Shown: one piece after another, positions 1,288-23,169 of the stretch
Layout of the letters: each line of letters begins with the position of its first letter
Position numbering within the stretch: position 1 is the first letter of the stretch
Source: a virus
IMG/VR virus record: IMGVR_UViG_3300042090_000404
Span: 1 to 26,279 of that record
DNA length: 26,279 bases
Direction: 5' to 3' (one strand)
Translations under genes and position numbers: made by a program
Notes under the pieces: model-generated
Seen by the model: only the letters and a program-made list of their open reading frames with translations
Told to the model about the DNA's origin: nothing
Databases searched by the model: none

Positions 1288-2415
1288 ATGAGCGTTACCC
1301 CGAATCAGATCGTGGCCTATGGCTGCGCACAAATGCCGGAAGCCGATAGTGTCACGGTCGGTGGCGCCGTCGATTTTACCAAGCGGGTTATGTTTGCTGA
1401 TCTCCCTTACGTTGGTCTCAATGGGTCCGCGAATACGGACACCATCGATATCGTGAGTGGGACTTCGGGAGATACCGGAGTCAAAATTCAGATTTCCGGG
1501 CGCGACGGCGCCGGTGTTATTCAGACCCCTGCCGTTGCGCAGCTTAACGGCACGGCTGTGGTTTCCTATAGCGTGCAGCTATTCCAGCGATTGGAATATG
1601 CGGTGATCACCGGTGGCAGCATAGGCGGGCTCTCTAATCCGGGAGGCACCGCGGCGACTTCGGACGTTGCAGCCATGTCGCATAAACGGATTGTGTCTGG
1701 ACACACGTCTAGTGGGTCTAGCGCCAACACGAGCGGGGTGACACCTCCGCTATTCGGATTGCAGGCCGGCGATGGCACGGCTGTGGGCGCAGCGGTATAC
1801 AATGGCTTAGGAGTGATTATCCGGATCACTGGAGGACCCGGAGCCGGGCAGCTTCGCATGGTCTCTGTGGGCTATAACGGGACCGCTTCCTATGGAACCG
1901 ATATCGTTGCCATTAACCGGGACTGGGGAGTCCTGCCTACAGGATCATCGACATACGATTTGGCATATGGAATGCTATTCGATATCCTGCCTAATCCAGT
2001 GGTCGCAATCACCCGGCTTTTCGTCAATTCGTCAGCGGACATACCTGGAGGAGCGACTAGGACTTATTATGACAAGTTCTTCTTAGTCAATACCAACGGG
2101 ACCACCAGCCTGGTAAATGCTCAGGTGGAATTTCTCAGTGAAAGCCCGGCACTTCCGATCGGCGCGGCGCTCGATTTAGCTCTTGGCTCTGCGCTAAATG
2201 ACAACACCACGATTGCCAATCGGCAGACCGCGCCCGCGAACACCGGCGGGTTTATAGTTCAGCCCTCCCTCATAACGGTTCCTGGAGGCGGGACCATTCC
2301 CTTTGGGAATGCTGCATCGGGCGCGGTTGCTTGTTGGGCCCGCTTGACGCTAAATCCGGGCACGGCGACCTATCAAGGCGCCGTCGATGCGCGGGCAATT
2401 GGTAATACAACGTGA
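1288..2415 (+). CDS. Phage structural protein, Gly/Thr-rich (probable neck or appendage component)
   Basis: This is a 375-residue protein starting at ATG 1288, with GGA at 1279-1281 as ribosome-binding site. It is rich in Gly, Thr, Ser and Val, with few Lys and no long helices. This is typical of beta-structured virion proteins. The first third ('GGAVDFTKRVMFADLP', 'IDIVSGTSGDTGVKIQISGRDGAG') reads like beta-sandwich strands. The middle is a low-complexity Gly/Ser/Thr stretch around residues 110-155. The C-terminus ('SGAVACWARLTLNPGTATYQGAVDARAIGN') resembles ends seen in hypothetical structural proteins just upstream of fibre genes in related phages. Its stop overlaps the next start (GTGA), so it is translationally coupled to the big S74 fibre. 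I infer that it could be the base plate or adaptor on which that fibre sits. No specific function is recognised. Confidence 0.55.
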   Translation: MSVTPNQIVAYGCAQMPEADSVTVGGAVDFTKRVMFADLPYVGLNGSANTDTIDIVSGTSGDTGVKIQISGRDGAGVIQTPAVAQLNGTAVVSYSVQLFQRLEYAVITGGSIGGLSNPGGTAATSDVAAMSHKRIVSGHTSSGSSANTSGVTPPLFGLQAGDGTAVGAAVYNGLGVIIRITGGPGAGQLRMVSVGYNGTASYGTDIVAINRDWGVLPTGSSTYDLAYGMLFDILPNPVVAITRLFVNSSADIPGGATRTYYDKFFLVNTNGTTSLVNAQVEFLSESPALPIGAALDLALGSALNDNTTIANRQTAPANTGGFIVQPSLITVPGGGTIPFGNAASGAVACWARLTLNPGTATYQGAVDARAIGNTT

Positions 2416-5400
2416 CGACTTTTCTCGATCTAGTTCGGGTCCTGGTTCCGACCGGAGGCACAGTTGCTTCCGTGTCCTTGGGCTTGCCTGTGGCGGGTTT
2501 CCTATCCTTCTCTGCGGCGGGAGGGGTAGATGGAACCACATACAGCTATTCGATCCAGGACCCGAATGGAAACTCCGAAATAGGGACGGGCGTTTGGTCG
2601 CTTTCCGGCAACACATTTAACCGCACAACAGTAACCAAGTCCACAAACAGTAACAATAGGATTAATCTGTCTGGGCAAGCGCAGCTTCGCGTTTGCTTGC
2701 GAGCGGAGGACACATTTGTCACGCTCGGCACTACCCAGATGAATCTTTCACAGTCCTATGGCACTATTGGTGGTCCGATTACATGGACTGGCGTTCAAAC
2801 GTTTAGCAGCGGCGCTTTTGTTTCTGGCGGGGAATTAGTTCTACAAAATACAATTGCACTTGAAATGAATAATAGTGCCGGATCAATTGTCGGCGGATCG
2901 GTTGGCAGTTTATTCCTTAAGTTTAGCGACAATAATACTTATTTAGACAGCTATGATCCTGGGTCTGAATTCATTTTTCGTGGTAACGCTTATGCCCAAT
3001 TGATGGTCATAGGTAGCAATGGCGCGGTCACCGCTGCGAGTTTCAACGGGATGTCCGGGCTTGCTAACCCGACCGGAACGATAGGGCTCACGACAGTAAA
3101 TGGCGTTGCGTCCACTGCGATGCGCAGCGATGCGGCTCCTGCGCTTTCGCAAGCGATTACTCCGACATGGACTGGGGTGCATAATTTTTCGACCAATTTG
3201 AATCTTACGGGAACTGAAGGGAATCAACTTGGTTGGCAAATAGGAGGATCAGGCCAGCAGTGGCACATGAATCTTAATTCGGGTGGATTGTTATATATTC
3301 AGGACGTAACACATAGCCGTTTCCCCTTCCAAGTTGCCGGGAGCGCGGCCAACGCTTCGATTTACATCGGCACGATCGGAGTGGGTATTACAACAACTAC
3401 TCCAAATGCTCTGTTGTCATTGGGAAACGCAATCACGACCATTAAGATTGCGGCTTATGATGATGGTGTATCTTATTATGGAATGGGGGTTAACTCAGGT
3501 CAGTTGACGTTTGGTGCCGGGCTTTCCACGGTTAGTGGAACGGCGCAGATGGTTCTCAATTTTAATGGCACATTCGGGGTTAAAAGTCAGATTGTTGTCG
3601 GTAATTTAGCCCAATTATTTACACCTTCGACTGCGATTTTTACTGCGCATTCAGGAACGAATCAAAATTTAAATATCAGCGCTCCTCGTAATCTTGCTTC
3701 AGGTGTGTCACTTTGGAGTGTAAATGATGCGGACAATACATATCAGCCATTGGAAATTGCGGGAAGTCAAATCAATCTTACCAGTGGCAATGTAGGCATT
3801 GGCGCTGCGGCCACTCCGGATACTTTGCTCACGGTTAATGCCAATACCGTAGCCACTTCGGTTGCGCCCCCGGCAGGCACCATACTTCATATTGTCGGTA
3901 GTGCGTCTAATCCAAATGCGCGAATTCAGGTCGATAACTTTGGCGCCGCCGGGTCCCCGATTCTTTTGATGCGCGCCACGGGCGGAAGCATTGGCTCGAT
4001 GTCCGCAGTAACGAGCGGTCAAAACTTATTTCAAATGCAGGGCCAAGGGTGGGATGGTTCCATTTATGGAGTGGGCTCTCTTATCAATGGATATGCGCAA
4101 GAAAATTGGTCAGGCACTGCGCATGGAAGTTACTTGTCGTTCATTACAGTACTTCCTACCACGACTACATTTGCGGAACAAATGCGGATTTGGGGCAGTG
4201 GAAATGTGCAAATAGGTTCGCCTTATACCAGCGATCTAAACTTTATTGGATTGACTGTATCTGGCAAAGCAAGCATCGGAGCGGCGCTTGCCCCGGATGC
4301 CATATTGACCGTTAATGCAAATTCCAGCGCGGCAGTGGCCCCTTCCGCAGGAACTAATCTTCATGTTGTAGGTGGAACGGGCGCGAGTCAAATGTTTCTT
4401 GATGCTTACGGGGGACAGGCGATTTATGCCGCCCGTAGAGCGCAGGGAAGCCTTGCGAGCCCATCCGCAATGCAAGCCAATCAAAATCTTTGTTCTTTCG
4501 CCGGCCTTGGTTATGGAGCGACTGGATACAGTTCCGGCGCCCGTGCGTTCATTGCTCTTTTGTCAGCACAAAATTGGACAGATACGGCGCAAGCCACTCA
4601 GATAAATTTTTCAACTACTGCGCTTAATAGCACCACTCTCGCGACAGCTATGTCAATTTTTCCGTCCGGAGATGTTGGAATAGGAACGACAACTGACACT
4701 AATGGCAGACTTATAGTTACAGGCGCAAGTCAGGCCCCATCAAATGCAGGTGGAGGTTTTGGCTCGGTTGCATTTACAACCGGGTCCGGATTGACCACAG
4801 ATAACCAGCTAATTTTCGGTGTTTACGATGGTGGGCCTTCCTCGTGGATTCAAGCGGTTAAGTCGGGAACTAGCTGGAATCAACTTGATCTAAATCCGAA
4901 TAGTGGCAATGTCAGTATCTCGGAGAACGCGCCCACCGGGGGCGGCCTTCTTATAGGAACTCCATCGGCGCCCGCAGGAACTTCGATTCTGGCGAGTCAG
5001 AATTTGACGTCCGGGAGTGCCTTAGTTGCGTCGTTTATTACCTCACAATGGAGATTTGTTGCTGCTGACGGTGTCATTCCTAGGATGATAGTGGAGGGTT
5101 ATAATGCCATTCCCGCGTTTGCCTTTGCGTATGCAGGGGGAAGCGGAGCAAGTCCTTCCGCGCCAGGAGCGGGACAACAGTTATGTAATTTTAATGCCAC
5201 TGGTTTTAATGGAACAGCATTTACAGGTGGCGCAGGGGGCATGCAAGTTTATGCAGATGCCGCCTGGTCTCCGACTTCGAATGGCACTCATCTTGATCTT
5301 TTTACTACTGCTAATGGCTCGACCTACCCAAGCCATCGTTCAGTGCTTCGCGTACAAGCTTCCGGGGGAATAAGTGTCAGCGCGGGAGGTACTTTTTATG

Positions 5401-7271
5401 ATGCTGGCGCAGGGGGCATTGTTTCCAATGGATTGATTTCATGTTTATATAATATCGGTGCCACTACGACTAATTTGATAACGACCATTGGAAGTGCTGG
5501 GGCCGGATTTGGTCATGCCGTAGCTTGGAATTTTTCTAGTGGATATGGAGAAACTGCATTTTTCAATAATATAGACGGCGGGAACACTTTTGATTATATC
5601 TTTTACGATTATACAAATAGCGCGGTGACTCCGTTATTTTATATTGCGAATACGGGTGGATTTTACACCAATTCGACTTTATCGCCTACCGCACTCCAGG
5701 GCTCCACATTTATAGCTTCAACTGCGGGGCAGGCAGGCACAGGCCTTTCGATTGGGTCTAATGCAGATACCTGGGTCGCGATGGCGATGACATATAACGA
5801 CTCTACATTGAGAGTCGTTCCGTATGGACCTTATGGCAATCAACTTACTCCCGCGCTGAATTGTGGAATGTTTCATGGTTATTACGGAGCGGGGGCGGGT
5901 TCGCCACTTGTGCAAGCCTCTACTCAGGTTGCGCATTTTGTGTATGGAAAGCAAAATGCTTTCAATTCGGGAGGCACATCCATCTATGGAGAAGGTGGTT
6001 GTTTGTGGTTAAATGCTTGGGGAGGTTGGAACGGCACTTCTCTCACTTTTACAAGGAGCGTCACTCTTACGAATGGCAGTCAGGTTCAAACCGTACCCGC
6101 GGCCCCGACTTCAAATACCTATTATGTGGGGATGCCGGTTTCCGGGACAGGTATTCCACAAGGTGTGACATTTACTGGTCAAATTTCTGGTACCGCATTA
6201 ACGGTTAACGGGACCTCCGTGACCGGCGGTGTTATTGCGGTTGGACAGCAAATCGCTGGTGCAGGGGTTTCAGGAAGCACATTCATCACTGCCGGCTCTG
6301 GGTCCAATTGGACCGTCAATATTTCTCAAACGGTCTCAGGCACTGTGACATTTACTGTTTTTGCAACTGTTATTATAGCGGTGAATGGATCCACATCCAT
6401 TACACTTAACAATCGTGCGAATTTGGGCACAACTCAAACTTTGACCTTTACTGCGGGGGTGGCGTCAGCAACTCCCGGTGACACGTTCCTTTTTGTGGGG
6501 CAAACTTTTACCCATGATCCGAATGGGGTGGGTTGTCTTGCGGAAACATTCGAAACAGTAGGTGCGGTTTATATCGGCTCTCTTTCTGTCCCTGATTTCG
6601 GGTTCAGAATACAATGCGGGCTAGCTACAAATCTGAATATCGGAGTTCCTTCTGGAACAACCCATGTGCTAGGATATATAGCAGAAATGGATTATTACGG
6701 GCAAGATCAAGGAGGGTCTAATGGCGGCATCGCCTTTTTAGCTGCGCAAGGGGCATCTGGCCGCGATTGGGGTCTGTTCGCTTCCGCTACTGGATTTACT
6801 ATGACAACGACAGGATCGATTGCTCAAATATCTGATCCGACTGCGAAAAAGAATATCACCAAAATTGAGAATGTCCGTGAAATAATCCGAGGCATTCACC
6901 CTGTTACTTTTGATTGGAAGGACGACTTTATAAAGCATAGTCAGGATTCTCCTTACAAAGGTTCCGGCAAGAATTGGGGGTTCATTTCTCATCATCATGA
7001 GGGAATAGGTGGCGTTGTCGATGCCTTCTCTGACCTTGGGTTAGATTTTAGTTCTCATCATCATCCTATTCATGAAATGAGGAAAACAGGACCGTATTTG
7101 CGTACAGGCAAAATCGGAGAGCATACTGGAAAGACTTATACCGCGTTTCAACATCTCGCCTTGCTTCCGGTAGTTTTTCGAGGCGTTCAGCAAGTATGGG
7201 ACGATTTAGACGCCTTAAAGGAACGGGTCTCAGTGCTAGAGGCCCAAAGCGCTTTGCCAACGGTACATTAA
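2412..7271 (+). CDS. Large appendage/tail fibre with C-terminal S74 intramolecular chaperone
   Basis: This 1619-residue fibre starts at GTG 2412, overlapping the upstream TGA. The N-terminus (about 1-110) is a small beta domain. The shaft consists of beta-rich Gly/Ser/Thr/Asn segments with recurring phage-fibre phrases: 'TWTGVQTFS' and 'TWTGVHNFS', and several '(V/A)xIG-x-(A/T)' starts. Two long tandem modules begin at residues 464 and 624. A Gly/Thr-rich inserted module occupies about 1254-1316. The last 146 residues (from Ser1474, 'SDPTAKKNI') match the S74 endosialidase-chaperone family: a conserved SDxxxKxNI start, 'HPVTFDWK', then 'TYTAFQHLALLPVVFRGVQQV' and a terminal coiled coil. In this family the chaperone trimerises the fibre and cleaves itself off at the Ser. 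The gene lies in the neck region, away from the other fibre genes, so a collar or neck whisker is as likely as a tail fibre. Confidence 0.85.
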   Translation: MTTFLDLVRVLVPTGGTVASVSLGLPVAGFLSFSAAGGVDGTTYSYSIQDPNGNSEIGTGVWSLSGNTFNRTTVTKSTNSNNRINLSGQAQLRVCLRAEDTFVTLGTTQMNLSQSYGTIGGPITWTGVQTFSSGAFVSGGELVLQNTIALEMNNSAGSIVGGSVGSLFLKFSDNNTYLDSYDPGSEFIFRGNAYAQLMVIGSNGAVTAASFNGMSGLANPTGTIGLTTVNGVASTAMRSDAAPALSQAITPTWTGVHNFSTNLNLTGTEGNQLGWQIGGSGQQWHMNLNSGGLLYIQDVTHSRFPFQVAGSAANASIYIGTIGVGITTTTPNALLSLGNAITTIKIAAYDDGVSYYGMGVNSGQLTFGAGLSTVSGTAQMVLNFNGTFGVKSQIVVGNLAQLFTPSTAIFTAHSGTNQNLNISAPRNLASGVSLWSVNDADNTYQPLEIAGSQINLTSGNVGIGAAATPDTLLTVNANTVATSVAPPAGTILHIVGSASNPNARIQVDNFGAAGSPILLMRATGGSIGSMSAVTSGQNLFQMQGQGWDGSIYGVGSLINGYAQENWSGTAHGSYLSFITVLPTTTTFAEQMRIWGSGNVQIGSPYTSDLNFIGLTVSGKASIGAALAPDAILTVNANSSAAVAPSAGTNLHVVGGTGASQMFLDAYGGQAIYAARRAQGSLASPSAMQANQNLCSFAGLGYGATGYSSGARAFIALLSAQNWTDTAQATQINFSTTALNSTTLATAMSIFPSGDVGIGTTTDTNGRLIVTGASQAPSNAGGGFGSVAFTTGSGLTTDNQLIFGVYDGGPSSWIQAVKSGTSWNQLDLNPNSGNVSISENAPTGGGLLIGTPSAPAGTSILASQNLTSGSALVASFITSQWRFVAADGVIPRMIVEGYNAIPAFAFAYAGGSGASPSAPGAGQQLCNFNATGFNGTAFTGGAGGMQVYADAAWSPTSNGTHLDLFTTANGSTYPSHRSVLRVQASGGISVSAGGTFYDAGAGGIVSNGLISCLYNIGATTTNLITTIGSAGAGFGHAVAWNFSSGYGETAFFNNIDGGNTFDYIFYDYTNSAVTPLFYIANTGGFYTNSTLSPTALQGSTFIASTAGQAGTGLSIGSNADTWVAMAMTYNDSTLRVVPYGPYGNQLTPALNCGMFHGYYGAGAGSPLVQASTQVAHFVYGKQNAFNSGGTSIYGEGGCLWLNAWGGWNGTSLTFTRSVTLTNGSQVQTVPAAPTSNTYYVGMPVSGTGIPQGVTFTGQISGTALTVNGTSVTGGVIAVGQQIAGAGVSGSTFITAGSGSNWTVNISQTVSGTVTFTVFATVIIAVNGSTSITLNNRANLGTTQTLTFTAGVASATPGDTFLFVGQTFTHDPNGVGCLAETFETVGAVYIGSLSVPDFGFRIQCGLATNLNIGVPSGTTHVLGYIAEMDYYGQDQGGSNGGIAFLAAQGASGRDWGLFASATGFTMTTTGSIAQISDPTAKKNITKIENVREIIRGIHPVTFDWKDDFIKHSQDSPYKGSGKNWGFISHHHEGIGGVVDAFSDLGLDFSSHHHPIHEMRKTGPYLRTGKIGEHTGKTYTAFQHLALLPVVFRGVQQVWDDLDALKERVSVLEAQSALPTVH
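3801..4700 (+). repeat. Two tandem long modules inside the S74 fibre shaft
   Basis: Two consecutive segments start with the same phrase: residues 464 onward (AAATPDTLLTVNA) and 624 onward (AALAPDAILTVNA). Both then run through 'AP-x-AGT-x-LH-(I/V)VG', 'QNL-F', 'YxxGSL/ARAF', 'NW(S/T)-TA' and 'FP/WGSG-(D/N)V-x-IG'. The DNA is also related at the start of each copy (3801-3843 and 4281-4322). A third, more divergent copy is suggested from about 5101 to 5390 ('SAPGAGQQLCNFNATGF', 'AWSPTSNGTHL'). The exact right-hand boundary is approximate. Confidence 0.6.
6171..6359 (+). repeat. Shared Gly/Thr-rich module, copy 4 (in S74 fibre)
   Basis: Residues about 1254-1316 of the fibre. Landmarks: FTGQISGTALTVNG, GGVIAVGQQIAGAGVSGSTFI, then a modified WTVNISQTVSGTVTF end. 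It is preceded by another Gly/Pro-rich module (YYVGMPVSGTGIPQG). Confidence 0.6.
6831..7271 (+). other. S74 chaperone domain and predicted self-cleavage site
   Basis: Encodes residues 1474-1619 of the fibre. Cleavage in this family occurs just before the conserved Ser of SDxxxK, here Ser1474. Lys1479 is in the usual position. The segment that in many relatives reads GFIAQEV is here 'WGFISHHHEGIGG', and a second His triad follows about 20 residues later. Confidence 0.75.
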
Positions 7272-9934: not shown

Positions 9935-11680
9935 ATGACCACGATCCCGGTCGGCCAACTTATCAATGTGACTCCAAACGTCCTTCCTGCTGGTGGGGAC
10001 GCTTTGTTCTTGAATGGGTTAATCCTGACAACCTCTACGGGTCGCGTGCCTTATGGATCGGTGCAATCTTTCCCGACCGCGGCGGCAGTGGCCACGTTTT
10101 TCGGAGCCTCTTCGAAAGAGGCGTCCCTGGCATCCGTGTATTTTAACGGATACATAGGCGCATCGGCAACGCCAGGGGCTCTTCTGTTCACTACTTATCC
10201 GAACACAGCCATAGCTGCGTTCCTCCGGGGAAGCAGCGTTGCGTCCCTTACCCTGACGCAGTTGCAGGTGCTTTCAGGGACACTTAACCTGACGGTCGAT
10301 GGCTATGCGAGGAACGTAGCTAACATCAGCCTTGCCGCCGCGGTCTCTTTCTCGAATGCCGCGACGATCATGCAGACTGCCTTAAACGGCTCTGCGCCGG
10401 CTAACCTGTCCTCGTTTACGGGCTCGCTTGCCGGTGGCACGATGACGGTTACAGGGCTCACGAGTGGCACGATTAACCCCGGAACGACGGTTAATGGAAC
10501 TGGCCTTAGCTCTCCCTCCGGCGTGATCATCCTCGCGCAGCTTTCTGGGTCCACGGGAGGAACCGGGACATACACCGTTACGTCGGCGGGCACCCTAGGA
10601 AGTCAGACCTTAAGCACGGCAGCGGTCCCGATCACGGTGACTTATGACTCCGTCTCAGGAGGCTTTTTATTCACCTCAGGGAACACCGGAAACCTGTCTA
10701 GCATTCAATATGCGACGGGCCTGCTTGCTACGTCCCTGAACCTTACTCAAGCGACGGGTGGCGTTATTTCGCAGGGTACGGCGGCCGGAACTCCGGGGCC
10801 GTTTATGAGCTCGATCATTAACATCACCCAGAATTGGGCGCTCTTTATGACCGCCTTCAATCCGGACTCGGTGGTCGGGGTGAACACTAACAAGTTGCTC
10901 TTCGCGCTATGGACTTCGCAACAGAACGATCGTTATGGTTATGTTGCTTGGGATACCGATGCAAGCCCGACTGTTACTGTTCCCGCGGCCTCTAGCCTAG
11001 GCCAGGAGGTTATTGCGGCCGGTTATTCGGGAACGTTCTGCATTTGGGAGCCTTCCGAGACCTATGTGGCCGCTTTCATCTTGGGCATTGCGGCTGCGCT
11101 CGACTTCTCGCAAACCAATGGGCGGGCGACCTTCGCCTATCGCAGTCAATCCGGTCTAACTCCGGGGGTTACAGACCCGACGACGGCCTCTAACCTCATC
11201 GCAAATGGCTACAATTTCTATGGAGCCTATGCGACGGCGAATCAGAACTTCCAGTGGCTGCAACCGGGCTCCGTCTCTGGGCCGTTCGTTTGGATGGATA
11301 GCTATGTTAATCAAATCCAGATGAATGCGCAATTCCAACTCACCCTTGCGGACTTGGAATCTAATACTGGATCGATACCGTACACACCAGCCGGATATTC
11401 GATCATCGCGAATTCCCTTCTAACCCCGATCAATGCCGCGTTGAACTTCGGAACGATCCGGGCAGGTGTGACACTTACATCGTCCGAAATTTTGGAGATC
11501 AATTCGGTGGCTGGCAATAATAACGCAGCCAACGCGGTCTCTACTCGTGGTTGGTATTTGCAAGTGTCTGATCCGGGCGCAGCGGTTCGCATTGCGCGCG
11601 GGTCTCCGGTGATGAACTTCTGGTATGCTGATGGTGAAGCGGTCCAGATGATGAGCCTTAACTCTATCGATGTCCAATAA
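9935..11680 (+). CDS. Contractile tail sheath protein (DUF3383 family)
   Basis: This is a 581-residue protein starting at ATG 9935, preceded by GAGGA at 9926-9930. The N-terminus ('IPVGQLINVTPNVLPAGGDALFLNGLIL', then 'VPYGSVQSFPTAAAVATFFGASS', 'GALLFTTYP') is diagnostic of the DUF3383 sheath-like family. The C-terminal part ('WYLQVSDPGAAVRIARGSP', 'YADGEAVQMMSLNSIDVQ') is the conserved sheath domain that links neighbouring subunits. Sheath subunits surround the tube and contract on infection, so the particle is a myovirus. Residues about 159-229 are a Gly/Ser/Thr-rich module inserted in the N-terminal region after a strand pair resembling 'GTLNLTVDG'. The flanking strands continue as 'VPITVTYDSVSGGF', so the module looks like a surface insertion. 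The tube gene follows after a strong AGGAGG ribosome-binding site. Confidence 0.9.
   Translation: MTTIPVGQLINVTPNVLPAGGDALFLNGLILTTSTGRVPYGSVQSFPTAAAVATFFGASSKEASLASVYFNGYIGASATPGALLFTTYPNTAIAAFLRGSSVASLTLTQLQVLSGTLNLTVDGYARNVANISLAAAVSFSNAATIMQTALNGSAPANLSSFTGSLAGGTMTVTGLTSGTINPGTTVNGTGLSSPSGVIILAQLSGSTGGTGTYTVTSAGTLGSQTLSTAAVPITVTYDSVSGGFLFTSGNTGNLSSIQYATGLLATSLNLTQATGGVISQGTAAGTPGPFMSSIINITQNWALFMTAFNPDSVVGVNTNKLLFALWTSQQNDRYGYVAWDTDASPTVTVPAASSLGQEVIAAGYSGTFCIWEPSETYVAAFILGIAAALDFSQTNGRATFAYRSQSGLTPGVTDPTTASNLIANGYNFYGAYATANQNFQWLQPGSVSGPFVWMDSYVNQIQMNAQFQLTLADLESNTGSIPYTPAGYSIIANSLLTPINAALNFGTIRAGVTLTSSEILEINSVAGNNNAANAVSTRGWYLQVSDPGAAVRIARGSPVMNFWYADGEAVQMMSLNSIDVQ
10409..10621 (+). repeat. 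Shared Gly/Thr-rich module, copy 2 (in sheath)
   Basis: Residues 159-229 of the sheath. Landmarks: FTGSLAGGTMTVT, SGTI-PG, NGTGL, then SGSTGGTGTYTVTS. Confidence 0.7.
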
Positions 11681-11692
11681 GGAGGGCGTTAG

Positions 11693-12124
11693 ATGGGATC
11701 GATTACCGCAGCCAATGCGATCTTCTTAATTCAGATACCAGGGCTGATCCCAGTCCCGGTTCAGTTGCAAGGGTTCAGTGCTGATGACATCTTCGATTTC
11801 GACCCGCAAGCCGTGGTCGAGACTTCGATGGGTGTGGATGGCATTTTATCCGGCGGCTTCGTCAATGTCGCTGTGAAGCAGTCCATTACGTTGCAGGCGG
11901 ACTCGGCTTCCAATGACATCTTCGATCTTTGGCAGCAGGCGCAGCGAACGGCGCTCGATGTCCTCACGGCAAATGGGATTGTGACCCTAACCTCGATCGG
12001 GAAGCAATACGCCCTAACAACCGGCTTTTTGACCGACTATCCGCCTGTCCGCGGAGCCGGTAGGATATTGAAGCCGCAAAAGTATGGCGTAACATGGCAG
12101 AGTGTAACCCCGGCGCCGGTGTAA
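11693..12124 (+). CDS. Tail tube protein
   Basis: This is a 143-residue protein starting at ATG 11693, with an excellent AGGAGG at 11680-11685. The length and pattern are those of myovirus tube subunits: an N-terminal 'FLIQIPGLIPVPVQLQGFSADDIFDF', then 'ETSMGVDGILSGGFVNVAVKQSITLQADSASNDIFDLW', and a C-terminal 'GRILKPQKYGVTW'. The tube is the inner hollow channel, built on the hub and surrounded by the sheath. Position directly after the sheath and before the assembly chaperone is the canonical order, which supports the call more strongly than the sequence alone. Confidence 0.8.
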   Translation: MGSITAANAIFLIQIPGLIPVPVQLQGFSADDIFDFDPQAVVETSMGVDGILSGGFVNVAVKQSITLQADSASNDIFDLWQQAQRTALDVLTANGIVTLTSIGKQYALTTGFLTDYPPVRGAGRILKPQKYGVTWQSVTPAPV

Positions 12125-12125
12125 G

Positions 12126-12593
12126 ATGCGAAAAGTTGGAACTGTTACGATTACGGATGAAAATCGGGATAAGGACAAGGTGTTTGTATTGACTGAGATG
12201 CCCGCCAGTCGTGCAGAGCGGTGGGCAACTCGGGTGGTGATGGGCCTGATTAAAGTGGGGGTGGAAATTCCGGAGGAGTCTGGGATGGAAGCAATCGCTA
12301 AAATCGGGCTCCAGGCTCTTGCTTCGCTTTCGTTCGATGATGCACAATTCCTCATGGACGAAATGATGCAGTGCGTCCATATCCTTCCGGACCCGAAGAA
12401 AAACCCGACTTTTACACGCCCTCTTATGGAAGAGGATATTGAGGAAGTTTCCACCCGAGTTAGGCTTAGGTTGGAGGTATTCACTTTGCATACGGGTTTT
12501 TCCTTTCCCGGAAAGCCCTCGATATTGGTGACGGCTTCTCCGGGATTGAACTCCACCCATACCGGAACCTCCCGGCAACAATCGCGACGGTGA
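12126..12593 (+). CDS. Tail assembly chaperone, short (0-frame) product
   Basis: This 155-residue protein has its ATG one base after the tube stop. The N-terminal 125 residues ('LTEMPASRAERWATRVVMGLIKVGV', 'IAKIGLQALASLSFDDAQFLMDEMM', 'EDIEEVSTRVRLRLEVF') are a helical domain. This is the usual look of the gpG-like chaperone that coats the tape measure during tail assembly. The 30 residues after the slip site (12501-12593) are Ser/Thr/Arg-rich and look unselected, as expected for a short read-through tail. The gene lies between tube and tape measure, the conserved place for this chaperone. It is normally made in excess over a frameshifted longer form (separate entry). Confidence 0.8.
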   Translation: MRKVGTVTITDENRDKDKVFVLTEMPASRAERWATRVVMGLIKVGVEIPEESGMEAIAKIGLQALASLSFDDAQFLMDEMMQCVHILPDPKKNPTFTRPLMEEDIEEVSTRVRLRLEVFTLHTGFSFPGKPSILVTASPGLNSTHTGTSRQQSRR

Positions 12594-12736
12594 TTTCGCA
12601 CGATAAAGCAAAACTGCACGAATTGGATACAGTTTACGGACTTCAAGACGTTTATGACATGTTGGAAGTGATAGTTGTCGATTTACATAATCGCAATCTT
12701 GTCGCAGAGCATATGGCCAAAGAGAAAAAATCCTAA
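12126..12736 (+). CDS. Tail assembly chaperone, long -1 frameshift product (gpGT-like)
   Basis: Join 12126-12500 with 12500-12736; predicted 203 residues. After the slip, the -1 frame reads FLSRKALDIGDGF and then 'IELHPYRNLPATIATVIS', 'LHELDTVYGLQDVYDMLEVI', ending at TAA 12734-12736, which overlaps the tape-measure ATG (TAATG). This frame is open only from 12470 and has no good start of its own near its beginning. It reads as a normal acidic helical protein, fills the otherwise non-coding gap 12594-12735, and runs exactly to the tape measure. In lambda and most long-tailed phages the equivalent gpG-T fusion is made by a -1 slip at a low fixed rate, and its T part binds the tail tube or tape measure. 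The 78 extra residues would be the T domain. Confidence 0.8.
12494..12500 (+). promoter_or_regulatory. Programmed -1 ribosomal slippery heptamer GGGTTTT
   Basis: In the 0 frame the bases read acG-GGT-TTT, exactly the X-XXY-YYZ arrangement. After a one-base backward slip both tRNAs re-pair as GGG and TTT. The heptamer falls inside the only window (12470-12593) where both frames are open. Confidence 0.75.
12503..12515 (+). other. Small inverted repeat just after the slip site
   Basis: CTTTC-CCG-GAAAG can form a 5-bp stem with a 3-base loop, two bases after the heptamer. It is closer than typical stimulatory structures, so a role in frameshifting is uncertain. Confidence 0.3.
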
Positions 12737-14163
12737 TGCCGACTGTCATTGATACTCTTATTATTCAATTGGGTTTGGATACGAAGCAATTCAGTGCGGC
12801 GCAAAAGAAGGCTGTTCAAGAGGCGAAAGACGCTAGCAAGAAAATTCAAGATTCTGCGGATGCTGTTCAACAGGTCTACAGCAAAGCTCGCAAAGAAGTT
12901 CTTTTGTTTGCTGCGGCCCTCTTAGGCGCGAACGGGATTAAAGAATGGTTTGTTAATACTACTCGGGCAAACGATGCCACTGGTAAGTTCGCCAAGATGG
13001 TGGGGGCGAATACAGAAGAGCTATCAAAATGGCAGGCTGTAGCAGAGCGCGCGGGCGGCTCGGCCGAAGGCATGGGGCAAACTCTCCTAGGCCTTACAAA
13101 GGATATCTCTCAATTAGGTGTACTCGGCCCCTCGGAAAGCCTACAATGGATTAATGCGCTCGGAATAGACCTTCAGAAGTTCCTCGATCAGAAAGGACAG
13201 CTTAAGGATTTTACAGGGCTTATGCTCGCCTTGAATGAGGCTCTGAGCAAAAAGCCTCCGGGTGAGCGCATTCTTTGGGCAGAGCGTCTACATATTGATT
13301 TGCAGAATATCAATGTTCTTGCGGGCACGGCGCCGGAAAAGTTACGCGCCATGTTGCAGGAACAAGAGAAAATTGGGTTCACTACAAAGGATCAATCGGA
13401 AAATTCACGCAAGCTCGTGGCTGCGTGGACGGAATTGACGCAGTTGGTAGGTAATTTTTCGCGCATTCTAATTGACAAGGTGACCCCTCCGCTTACTCAG
13501 ATTTTGGAATTAGTGAATTCTATTCTCAAATTAGCCGGGACCGCATTCTCATTCAGTATTTTGAAACAAGCTGAGAAATATTTGCCTGGGCTTAGTACCA
13601 TAGAAAAGTTGGCGGGGAAAAAATCAGAAGGTGCGGTTGCTGGGGTTTCTCCGGGAGAGAGCGGGGGATTGCGCACAAAGCCCGGCGCCGGCTCGGCGAG
13701 CGCGGGCGTGTGGGCTCTTGCCCGTTCGATACAGAACGAATTCGGAGTCGATCTATTCACGGCCTTTAACGACGTTTTCCATCAGCAATATCGATCTAAG
13801 CACAACGAAGGCCTCGCGGCGGATTTCACCCTTAAGGACCCGAAACAATCGGCTGCGGTCGCCGCGGCGATCCGGGCGAAGTTCGCATCCCTCGGAATTC
13901 AAGGCTCTGTGCTCGATGAGTACACCAATCCTTCGGCGCATGCGACGGGCGGCCATATCCATGTTCAATTCGCAAGCCAAGCCGCAGCCGATCGCTACGC
14001 GGCAGGGGCCGCAGGAGGCGAGACCAATTTCAATATCAATACGGTGAACGTCTCTGCGAACAACCCGCAACAGTTCTCGAATGAACTCGCGGCAGTCTCC
14101 GGGGCGAAGGCCTCGGCGCAGCGTTCCTCTATCGCAACTTCATCTAACAGTGCGGTTCGATGA
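12736..14163 (+). CDS. Tape measure protein with C-terminal M15-like peptidase domain
   Basis: This is a 475-residue protein starting at ATG 12736. Residues 1-300 are helical: 'DTLIIQLGLDTKQFSAAQKKAVQEA' is a typical tape-measure N-terminus, followed by a hydrophobic stretch 'LLFAAALLGANGIKEWF' (residues 56-72). Residues about 325-412 form a separate domain with the M15 D-Ala-D-Ala peptidase pattern: H356-x6-D363 in 'KHNEGLAADF', acidic D394/E395, and H407-x-H409 in 'GGHIHVQF'. These would be the zinc ligands and catalytic acid, suitable for cutting cell-wall peptides during DNA entry. The last 45 residues are the Asn/Ser/Ala-rich tail usual for tape measures. The protein is short for a tape measure, so a short tail is expected. 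Its TGA overlaps the hub ATG. Confidence 0.8.
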   Translation: MPTVIDTLIIQLGLDTKQFSAAQKKAVQEAKDASKKIQDSADAVQQVYSKARKEVLLFAAALLGANGIKEWFVNTTRANDATGKFAKMVGANTEELSKWQAVAERAGGSAEGMGQTLLGLTKDISQLGVLGPSESLQWINALGIDLQKFLDQKGQLKDFTGLMLALNEALSKKPPGERILWAERLHIDLQNINVLAGTAPEKLRAMLQEQEKIGFTTKDQSENSRKLVAAWTELTQLVGNFSRILIDKVTPPLTQILELVNSILKLAGTAFSFSILKQAEKYLPGLSTIEKLAGKKSEGAVAGVSPGESGGLRTKPGAGSASAGVWALARSIQNEFGVDLFTAFNDVFHQQYRSKHNEGLAADFTLKDPKQSAAVAAAIRAKFASLGIQGSVLDEYTNPSAHATGGHIHVQFASQAAADRYAAGAAGGETNFNINTVNVSANNPQQFSNELAAVSGAKASAQRSSIATSSNSAVR

Positions 14164-20320: not shown

Positions 20321-21508
20321 ATGCAAAAGTCTGGTGTTCCGACTAAGTTTCCCATTCCATGGGCGAGCGCGGCAACCGCTCCTTACATTCGAACGATTCC
20401 ACAAGCCTCCCAAATTAATATTCAGGCGGGCGCGGCGTCACTCACAGATGGATACCCGCCAGTTACTTTCTTGCAAGCCGGCGCGGGAGGCGTGTCACCT
20501 TTCGGGTCTGATACAAATGGAATTCTAAATCAGATCACTCTTTGGTGTCAATGGATGAGTGCCGGAGGACCGATCGTTTGGGACTCTGCTTTCTCGGCTG
20601 CGGTCGGTGGATATCCTCTCGGCGCGATCGTACAATCTGCGACGACAGCTGGGCTCTTTTGGTATTGTCAGGCAGATAATAACACGAGTAATCCCGACAC
20701 CGGTGGATCGAATTGGCTCGGGTTCCAACTTGCCCAGACGATCCCCGCGGGACAGGTCCGCTTTACCCAGACGACAGGAACCACCTGCACCCTAACCCCT
20801 ATCAATGGTGGACTGCTTTGGATTAACGGCCTCAACTATTTGATGACCGGAGGGACCTTTACCAACACAGGCCTCTCACCTAACACATTGTATTATGCCT
20901 ATGTGCAGGTTAACGCGAGCGGAGTATTTGTCTATAATTTCTCCACCACAGGATACAATCGAGGGTCTAATGGCGTCGCGGTAAAGATCGGCGACGCGAC
21001 GCAAACCCTAGTCGGAATGGTGCAAACGAATTCCTCCTCTCAGTTCGTGCTCACAGATGGAAGTTATTGGGTTCGAACTTGGTATCAACGTCAACTCGGC
21101 CGGTCCCGGACGCAATTTTCTGCACCGCGTACTACTTCATCCACGATAGCGACAGAAATTAACAATGAAATTCGAAATTCATTTCTCGTTTGGGCAAATG
21201 AAAACATCCAGTTTTCTGTAACTGGGTCTTTTTATTCTGGCGCAGGGGGCGGAAATGCTGGGACATACGTGTCATTTGACAGTGGAGCGATAGAACCCGA
21301 AGCAGCCGGCAATTTTTATCCACAACCGGGGGTAGGCGTCTCTACCCCTATTGGAATTATCGGAGTGAAAACCGGCCTTACAGAAGGTCTTCATTACGCG
21401 ACTCTGTTCGGGTCCTGTAGTGCTGGCACGGCGGGCTGGGTCGGGACTAATGCAAGCAGTCAAGCCCTTACCATGTTGGAATTATCTTTTGAAGGTCAAT
21501 CTCCATGA
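20321..21508 (+). CDS. Tail fibre protein
   Basis: This is a 395-residue protein. ATG 20321 is chosen: AAGGG at 20309-20313 is 7 bases upstream, and the conserved N-terminus begins there. A longer reading from 20240 would lie in the DUF2612 gene. The N-terminal 150 residues ('PTKFPIPWASAATAPYIRTIPQASQI', 'GAASLTDGYPPVTFLQAGAGGVSPFGSDTNGILNQITLW', 'GGYPLGAIVQSATTAGLFW') are a widespread phage fibre attachment domain. Beta-rich shaft segments follow, including 'GGLLWINGLNYLMTGGTFTNTGLSPNTLYYAYV'. The C-terminus ('GLTEGLHYATLFGSCSAGTAGWVG') looks like a compact tip domain. It is translationally coupled to the next fibre gene (ATGA). Confidence 0.8.
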   Translation: MQKSGVPTKFPIPWASAATAPYIRTIPQASQINIQAGAASLTDGYPPVTFLQAGAGGVSPFGSDTNGILNQITLWCQWMSAGGPIVWDSAFSAAVGGYPLGAIVQSATTAGLFWYCQADNNTSNPDTGGSNWLGFQLAQTIPAGQVRFTQTTGTTCTLTPINGGLLWINGLNYLMTGGTFTNTGLSPNTLYYAYVQVNASGVFVYNFSTTGYNRGSNGVAVKIGDATQTLVGMVQTNSSSQFVLTDGSYWVRTWYQRQLGRSRTQFSAPRTTSSTIATEINNEIRNSFLVWANENIQFSVTGSFYSGAGGGNAGTYVSFDSGAIEPEAAGNFYPQPGVGVSTPIGIIGVKTGLTEGLHYATLFGSCSAGTAGWVGTNASSQALTMLELSFEGQSP

Positions 21509-23169
21509 ACCGTATTTTTGCGGCTCTCCTTTTTCTGTTGGCTTCGATAAACTTCGCAGTTGCGCAGTCTAACCCAGGCCTTCAATTCGGCCAGGTTCCG
21601 ACCGCGACGCAATGGAATTCCTATTTTTCGGCCAAGCAGGATGTGCTGGGATACATCCCCCTTTCTACCCTCGGGGGAACCATGCTGGGCCGGCTCGTGA
21701 CCTTCGCCTCCTCTTCGTCGGCGGCCGGGTTTAACGTTCCTCCGGGCGCGGCCCCTAGCTCCCCAGCAAACGGCGATATGTGGTTAACTAGCTCCGGCCT
21801 TTTCGTTCAAGTTAACGGAGGTACAGTGGGGCCGCTCGGAACGGGCGTTGTCGGAACTCTCGCGGTTACTTCGGGAGGCACTGGACAATCGAGCTTTACC
21901 GCCAATCAGGTTCTGGTTGGCAATGGTAGCAGTGCCCTAAATAGTCTGCCCAAGTCCGGAACCGGATCAACGATCGCGAGCACTTCCGGCACGTTGACCA
22001 ATGGGCATTGCGTTTCGATCGGAGCGGCCGGCGATCTCGTGGACGCGGGAGGCGCCTGCACTACCGGCGGGGGCGGCGGGACAGTGTCCTCGGCGACTAG
22101 CGGGCAGATAGCGGTCTATTCCGGAACCACGACCGTTAGTGGTGTTACGGCTTGTAATAATGGGTACTACGGGACGAATGGCTCCGGGGTGGTATCCTGT
22201 ATTACAAGCGTCAACACCACGCTATCGGCCACGATAACGGCCCTCGGGACGATCGCATCGGGAACCTGGCAGGCGACGACGATCGCGGCGCAGTATGGCG
22301 GGACCGGGGTTAACAATGGTTCTAGCACCATTACCATCGGGGGCAATGTTACCTTCTCCGGAGCCTTTACCTTTGCGGGCACGGTGACTGGGAATACGGC
22401 CGTGACGTTCCCGACCACCGGAACCCTCATGAACCAGAATGGCGCTTCCGGAGGAGTACCATACTATGCCTCCTCCTCGACAGTCGGTAGCTCGGCCGCT
22501 CTGACGCAAAACTTGCCGATTGTCGGTGGAGGTTCTGGCAATCCCCCGGCCTCGGGCACGCGATCGGGCAACACAACGGAGTTCGTGACCACGACTGGAT
22601 CGCAGACTAACGGGAATTGCGTGTCGATTGACGGAAATGGCAATCATGTTCCCGTTGGATCGGCATGCGCCCGCCAACTCCTCAATACCTTAACGGCGTC
22701 GAATTCTGCGAGCTTGCAAGATACCACGAGCCTGACTAGCTCTTATTCATGGTATGAGATTGTATTTGAAAATGTGGTGCCAGCGAGTGGCAGTGCGACA
22801 TTTTGTAAGTTGCAAGTATATGTCTCAGGGTATCAAAGCGCAAATTACAAAGGGGTACAACAACAAGTAAATTCTACAGGTGTAAATGCTGTATCTGGAA
22901 ATATTGCTAATCAATATGACTGCTCCAGTTCAACTTCAACAGTTAATAGTTCTTCAGCTATTAATGGCGTTGTAAGGATTTACAATCCTAGCGCTGGGAA
23001 TGCCTTCCTTGAAGGAAATATGTCCTACATTAATTCAAGTGGCAATGCAGAGTTCACTAAAGCAAACGTTATCTATACAGGGAGCGGTGCAGCTGTTACC
23101 GGCTTCCAAGTAGTAATGAACTCCGGAAATATCACTTCGGGCGTTGTTAAGATATATGGCAATCCGTAA
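21505..23169 (+). CDS. Fibre protein with N-terminal signal peptide and mosaic tip
   Basis: This 554-residue protein starts at ATG 21505, overlapping the previous TGA. Residues 1-20 are a Sec signal peptide (MNRIFAALLFLLASINFAVA|Q). The mature N-terminus 'QSNPGLQFGQVPTATQWNSYFSAKQDVLGYIPLS' is a recurring fibre start. Shaft motifs follow: 'GTLAVTSGGTGQSSFTANQVLVG', a repeat-like pair 'TLTNGHCVSIGAAGDLVDAGGAC' and 'QTNGNCVSIDGNGNHVPVGSAC', and 'GNVTFSGAFTFAGTV'. From about residue 393 a different domain begins ('LNTLTASNSASLQDTTSLTSSYSWYEIVFENVVPA'), a type of beta-sandwich tip known from many phage fibres. Its DNA is visibly richer in A and T than the shaft. It is probably the receptor-binding end, acquired by recombination. 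A signal peptide on a fibre is unexpected for a virion protein assembled in the cytoplasm. Confidence 0.7.
   Translation: MNRIFAALLFLLASINFAVAQSNPGLQFGQVPTATQWNSYFSAKQDVLGYIPLSTLGGTMLGRLVTFASSSSAAGFNVPPGAAPSSPANGDMWLTSSGLFVQVNGGTVGPLGTGVVGTLAVTSGGTGQSSFTANQVLVGNGSSALNSLPKSGTGSTIASTSGTLTNGHCVSIGAAGDLVDAGGACTTGGGGGTVSSATSGQIAVYSGTTTVSGVTACNNGYYGTNGSGVVSCITSVNTTLSATITALGTIASGTWQATTIAAQYGGTGVNNGSSTITIGGNVTFSGAFTFAGTVTGNTAVTFPTTGTLMNQNGASGGVPYYASSSTVGSSAALTQNLPIVGGGSGNPPASGTRSGNTTEFVTTTGSQTNGNCVSIDGNGNHVPVGSACARQLLNTLTASNSASLQDTTSLTSSYSWYEIVFENVVPASGSATFCKLQVYVSGYQSANYKGVQQQVNSTGVNAVSGNIANQYDCSSSTSTVNSSSAINGVVRIYNPSAGNAFLEGNMSYINSSGNAEFTKANVIYTGSGAAVTGFQVVMNSGNITSGVVKIYGNP

Follow-up and report, generated by a model that had tools for sequence, protein, structure and literature searches.

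A predicted -1 ribosomal frameshift at GGGTTTT in the tail assembly chaperone gene of a contractile-tailed phage

Just upstream of a candidate tape measure gene in this virus DNA, an open reading frame (G) overlaps a second open stretch in its -1 frame (T), which raises the question of whether G and T are two genes or one gene read in two ways. The window, the whole 26,279-nt stretch that was analysed, comprises positions 1-26,279 of IMG/VR virus record IMGVR_UViG_3300042090_000404. Because gene order, family matches, the -1 relation and the conservation of both slip site and RNA structure all fit a frameshift of the gpG/gpGT kind, as the original prediction had proposed, we consider it very probable that a single gene yields two tail assembly chaperones by way of programmed -1 ribosomal frameshifting.

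Two coding frames between tail genes

The genes along the window run in the order sheath, tube candidate, G, T and tape measure candidate (Table 1), so that G lies between the candidate tube and tape measure genes, the position of gpG/gpGT-type chaperones. The ORF, frame and heptamer coordinates of the original prediction proved exact: the -1 frame is open from 12470 to a TAA at 12734-12736, overlapping G by 124 nt and extending 143 nt past its stop, and GGGTTTT is in register. The family matched by the tube candidate, PHROG 1964, is annotated as a virion structural protein, and we infer the tube role from gene order. The sheath has 581 aa against 455 in the PHROG 205 profile, which is matched over nearly its whole length, and the excess suggests an inserted domain.

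Table 1. Coordinates of the tail genes and of the putative frameshift signals in the window
Feature	Coordinates	Strand	Evidence
Tail sheath	9935-11680	+	DUF3383 3.2e-108; PHROG 205 5.8e-76
Tail tube candidate	11693-12124	+	E217_Gp32 3.4e-19; PHROG 1964 2.7e-45
G, tail assembly chaperone, 0-frame product of 155 aa	12126-12593	+	PHROG 1932 2.8e-39
Slippery heptamer G_GGT_TTT (-1 frame: GGG_TTT)	12494-12500	+	Same aligned position in relatives; synonymous fixation of GGT and TTT
T, -1 extension, predicted C-terminal part of GT	12494-12736	+	PHROG 3976 9.4e-20; PHROG 4774 3e-5
Predicted stimulatory hairpin	12506-12545	+	12-bp stem TCCCGGAAAGCC / GGCTTCTCCGGGA, one bulged C
Tape measure candidate	12736-14163	+	PHROG tape-measure families, best annotated 9.4e-22

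As computed here, G belongs to a tail assembly chaperone family through its match to PHROG 1932. The Pfam family Phage_TAC_15 recognises 7 of 26 aligned sequences, the strongest at 6.1e-9; the window's own G scores 0.063 against it, under the cut-off. An AlphaFold2 model of G, built with its viral relatives, is confident to about residue 120-123 and poor beyond, with confidence below 50 over residues 138-152. Because confidence drops after about residue 120, the folded domain of G appears to end near the slip site, and the residues that follow the slip (126-155) are predicted to be disordered. Compared with predicted viral structures, the model found an annotated tail assembly chaperone as its best match (E 1.6e-8). 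A second look, against solved structures, placed the HK97 tail assembly chaperone 2ob9 third, with a middling Z of 5.4 (rmsd 3.6, 83 aligned) and within a top group of three that stands above unrelated entries with Z of 3.3 and below; Foldseek gave the same pair an E of 1.1. Sequence searches of the PDB with G and T profiles returned no matches, and a scan of bacterial genomes with G found no relatives.

T comprises 78 residues (12500 to 12733) before its TAA. That this segment looks like protein, as had been claimed from its translation, is borne out by its match to PHROG 3976 and by an alignment of 26 T segments in which D52, E58 and N66 are invariant and which has the core LHELDTVYGxxD. The weaker match to PHROG 4774 covers the C-terminal part of that family, and both families lack a named function. 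The T model consists of an extended stretch followed by two helices and had no match in the PDB. Its role may be proposed from its position and by analogy. On the opposite strand, a 261-aa antisense ORF (11964-12749) spans G and T and is probably a by-product of the two coding frames.

Elsewhere in the window, a 1619-aa ORF (2412-7271, + strand) without a PHROG match lies between the head genes and the tail sheath. Its C-terminal end carries an endosialidase-type chaperone domain (Peptidase_S74 4.5e-6, residues 1474-1525), and it probably encodes a tail spike or fibre of very large size, at an unusual place for such a gene. A 554-aa protein encoded 3' of the tail fibre gene (21505-23169, + strand) had no match in PHROG, Pfam or PADLOC searches, and the window contains no Rfam families or tRNAs.

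The slip site and downstream structure in relatives

GGGTTTT at 12494-12500 is its sole + strand occurrence in the window and lies in register within the G/T overlap. In-register XXXYYYZ heptamers occur in the window at 0.0029 per codon, giving about 0.11 expected in the 124-nt overlap; the heptamer by itself is therefore mildly unlikely and weak evidence, and the relatives are decisive. We collected these in two sets. The first came from two protein scans of viral contigs and a tblastn search of sequenced phages; wherever it had matches to both G and T, in the window and 44 further loci, T lay in the -1 frame of G. The second, from a scan by T motif only and thus blind to the slip site, yielded 80 loci, all 80 with T in the -1 frame of G. 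The relation consequently holds in all 124 related loci with both parts matched, so that a ribosome shifting close to the 3' end of G would enter a conserved overlapping frame. Since a few second-set loci are contigs already present in the first set (e.g. L074, L076), slip-site tests were run on a non-redundant subset of 71 of 127 loci, less than 80% alike over 130 nt around the site.

We found a full heptamer at the GGGTTTT position in 35 of these 71 sequences (28 GGGTTTT, 4 AAATTTT, and one each of GGGTTTC, AAATTTC and CCCTTTT); a further 24 have T_TTT_TTN one codon downstream, and 12 have neither site, mostly reading GGATTTT then TC. The original prediction had asked for conservation of GGGTTTT among relatives, and the heptamer does recur at the same aligned position with its GGT and TTT codons fixed. 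For Phe at the slip, 68 of 71 sequences use TTT (26.3 expected, P 5e-29, given that TTT makes up 37% of Phe codons in these loci), and where Gly precedes it, the Gly codon is always GGT (33 of 33; 6.5 expected). The first of these counts chose the nearest T-TTT; a repeat on the motif-only set, tied to one fixed alignment column, found TTT for 40 of 43 Phe codons (14.9 expected, P 1.4e-17). Both P values assume independent sequences, an assumption that holds only in part.

T_TTY is common to all sequences, so that the Phe tRNA could re-pair one base back in every one; re-pairing of the preceding tRNA is common and not universal, the preceding codon being variable (GAT, GCT, CCT). As 12 of the 71 have T_TTY without a complete X_XXY_YYZ, the textbook dual-tRNA slip does not explain every member. 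A rule drawn from the first set, by which TTN invariably comes after a first codon that cannot slip, was broken in the second by GGATTTT then TC. Sites in the relatives also include GCCTTTT and CGCTTTT. Two Klebsiella phages, KP12 and RCIP0114 (L020:1944-1971 and L021), keep the -1 relation with the site CGCTTTTG, which lacks a full slippery heptamer.

A strong RNA structure is predicted a few nucleotides 3' of the heptamer, where a canonical -1 signal has it. The hairpin in the window begins 5 nt past the heptamer and folds at -22.2 kcal/mol (z -3.28), with none of 200 shuffles equally good. The closest hairpin had been thought unusually near; the relevant one is this 12-bp stem, and its spacing is ordinary. 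Relatives carry stems that differ in sequence and lie at a similar distance (TCGCCGGAGTGCG/CGACTCCGGCGA in L002, GGCCGTCGCC/GGTGACGGCC in L030). Their loop lengths vary and the MAFFT alignment lost the register of the stems; mean excess structure is strongest right after the slip site, with a combined z of -7.4 for 26 sequences of the first set and -9.9 for 45 of the second. The Klebsiella phage at L020 showed no excess downstream structure.

An upstream Shine-Dalgarno-like stimulator was also considered and finds no support beyond what coding requires. A GGAGGT precedes the heptamer and such motifs initially appeared enriched, but GAG at the Glu codon numbers 31 against 28.2 expected, and because there is no GAG excess, the apparent enrichment can be explained by the coding of R-x-E-V.

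Other origins for the -1 frame

T could instead be a separate gene with its own start in the -1 frame, an explanation we regard as very unlikely. A short ORF of its own is marked at this place in some genome records, and the -1 frame of the window does offer GTG codons at 12470 and 12590, but a start at 12590 would fall within the conserved domain of T. Among the relatives, only 9 of 71 sequences contain an ATG within the first 36 codons of the T frame and 62 lack one, and ATG, GTG and TTG are all absent from that stretch in 27; in one locus (L024) the -1 frame opens only from the slip site. Relatives that lack the heptamer and have strong separate starts, which would speak against a frameshift, were sought, and the minority without a heptamer were found to keep T_TTY. 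A separate start would also leave the fixed TTT and GGT codons without a reason.

Still less probable is slippage of RNA polymerase, rather than of the ribosome, on the T run as the source of the fusion frame. Longer T runs do occur at the site in some relatives, but the run is only five T long in the window and in many relatives. The commonest site, GGGTTTT then TC, has its Gly fixed as GGT, a constraint that slippage by polymerase does not require, and downstream RNA structure is conserved at ribosomal spacing. That G and T once formed a single frame, broken by a sequencing error or gene decay, has a negligible probability: although a single-base frame change between two conserved segments can mimic the pattern, the same -1 relation and overlap recur in more than 100 contigs and sequenced phages.

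A chaperone pair of the gpG/gpGT kind

Under the ribosomal frameshift, most ribosomes would terminate at the G stop (12593), yielding the 155-aa chaperone, and a shift of presumably low efficiency would divert the rest: this minority, paused by the putatively stimulatory hairpin at 12506-12545, would move one base back at G_GGT_TTT and read on to 12736. The predicted product is a 203-aa GT fusion of G residues 1-125 and the 78 residues encoded from 12500, joining HTGF to FLSRK. If phage lambda is a guide, binding of the tape measure protein, the product of the next gene, would fall to the G part and recruitment of the tail tube protein to the T part, and the G:GT ratio would control tail assembly.

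The lambda slip site is GGGAAAG; the site here is GGGTTTT, with a strong predicted hairpin downstream. In lambda, a complex of G with GT forms on the tape measure protein, and T is the part that binds the tube protein (reviewed in PMC5009743). As there, the chaperone gene lies just 5' of the tape measure gene (PMC5009743) and the -1 shift, here a predicted one, falls near the 3' end of G, the short lambda product being abundant and the fused one rare. Unlike lambda, this phage has a contractile tail with a DUF3383 sheath, and the two are likened by arrangement rather than by sequence kinship. With gene order, PHROG 1932, the universal -1 relation and the conserved slip site and structure in agreement, the proposed gpG/gpGT arrangement held up, and it is of an already known kind, here in a contractile-tailed phage.

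The same prediction had doubted GGGTTTT as a usual slippery sequence for this gene. That doubt did not survive: G_GGU_UUU is among the most shift-prone heptamers, as measured with mammalian ribosomes (PMC5009743), GGGTTTT is the commonest slip site among relatives of this chaperone, and a slip at GGGTTTT has been proposed in the tape-measure chaperone of Burkholderia phage PhiE067 (gp16/gp16.1; PMC7266877). As published, the geometry of that proposed slip is almost the same, with the shift at G127 and a 204-aa fusion against G124 and 203 aa here. The gp67/gp68 genes of Aeromonas phage vB_AsaM-56 and its relatives (Popoffvirus, Kunmingvirus) are direct homologues with GGGTTTT at the same aligned place; they are annotated as separate genes, gp68 as a hypothetical protein, and their G tail after the slip is shorter. 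According to the relevant passages of PMC12846349, the TAC-N/TAC-NC proteins of Pseudomonas phage Adele, Vandenendeviridae and Andersonviridae arise by a -1 shift close to where the chaperone gene ends, at a GTTTTT that is conserved; the -1 frame there is always open, and the downstream ORF is usually annotated as a hypothetical gene. The present locus, with its predicted -1 shift near the chaperone gene end and its open -1 frame, resembles those systems as described in these passages, and differs in that they belong to other phage families and that the same passages leave downstream structure unmentioned.

The ATG of the tape measure candidate shares bases with the T stop (TAATG, 12734-12738), and in 63 of 66 sequences a start codon occurs downstream, no more than 20 nt from the T stop. 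With stop and start overlapping or adjacent in this way in the window and its relatives, tape measure translation could be coupled to frameshifted ribosomes. The graded series of slip sites, including the 12 of 71 without full P-site re-pairing, is one point of some interest. It is conceivable, though we think it rather doubtful, that the constraint is a single Phe-tRNA slip on T_TTY rather than the full heptamer, and that tape measure synthesis is coupled to the rare GT-reading ribosomes. If so, those 12, lacking full P-site re-pairing in the -1 frame, would depend on the hairpin, and the relatives would form a natural series in which to ask how far bacterial -1 shifts depend on P-site pairing.

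The picture of tail length control is unchanged by these results. In records of homologous phages, T appears mostly as a separate hypothetical protein or goes unannotated, and the analysis corrects this annotation for a large group of contractile-tailed phages in which T has been called hypothetical or omitted. It also supplies 71 diverse natural candidate frameshift signals, with slip site and hairpin mapped.
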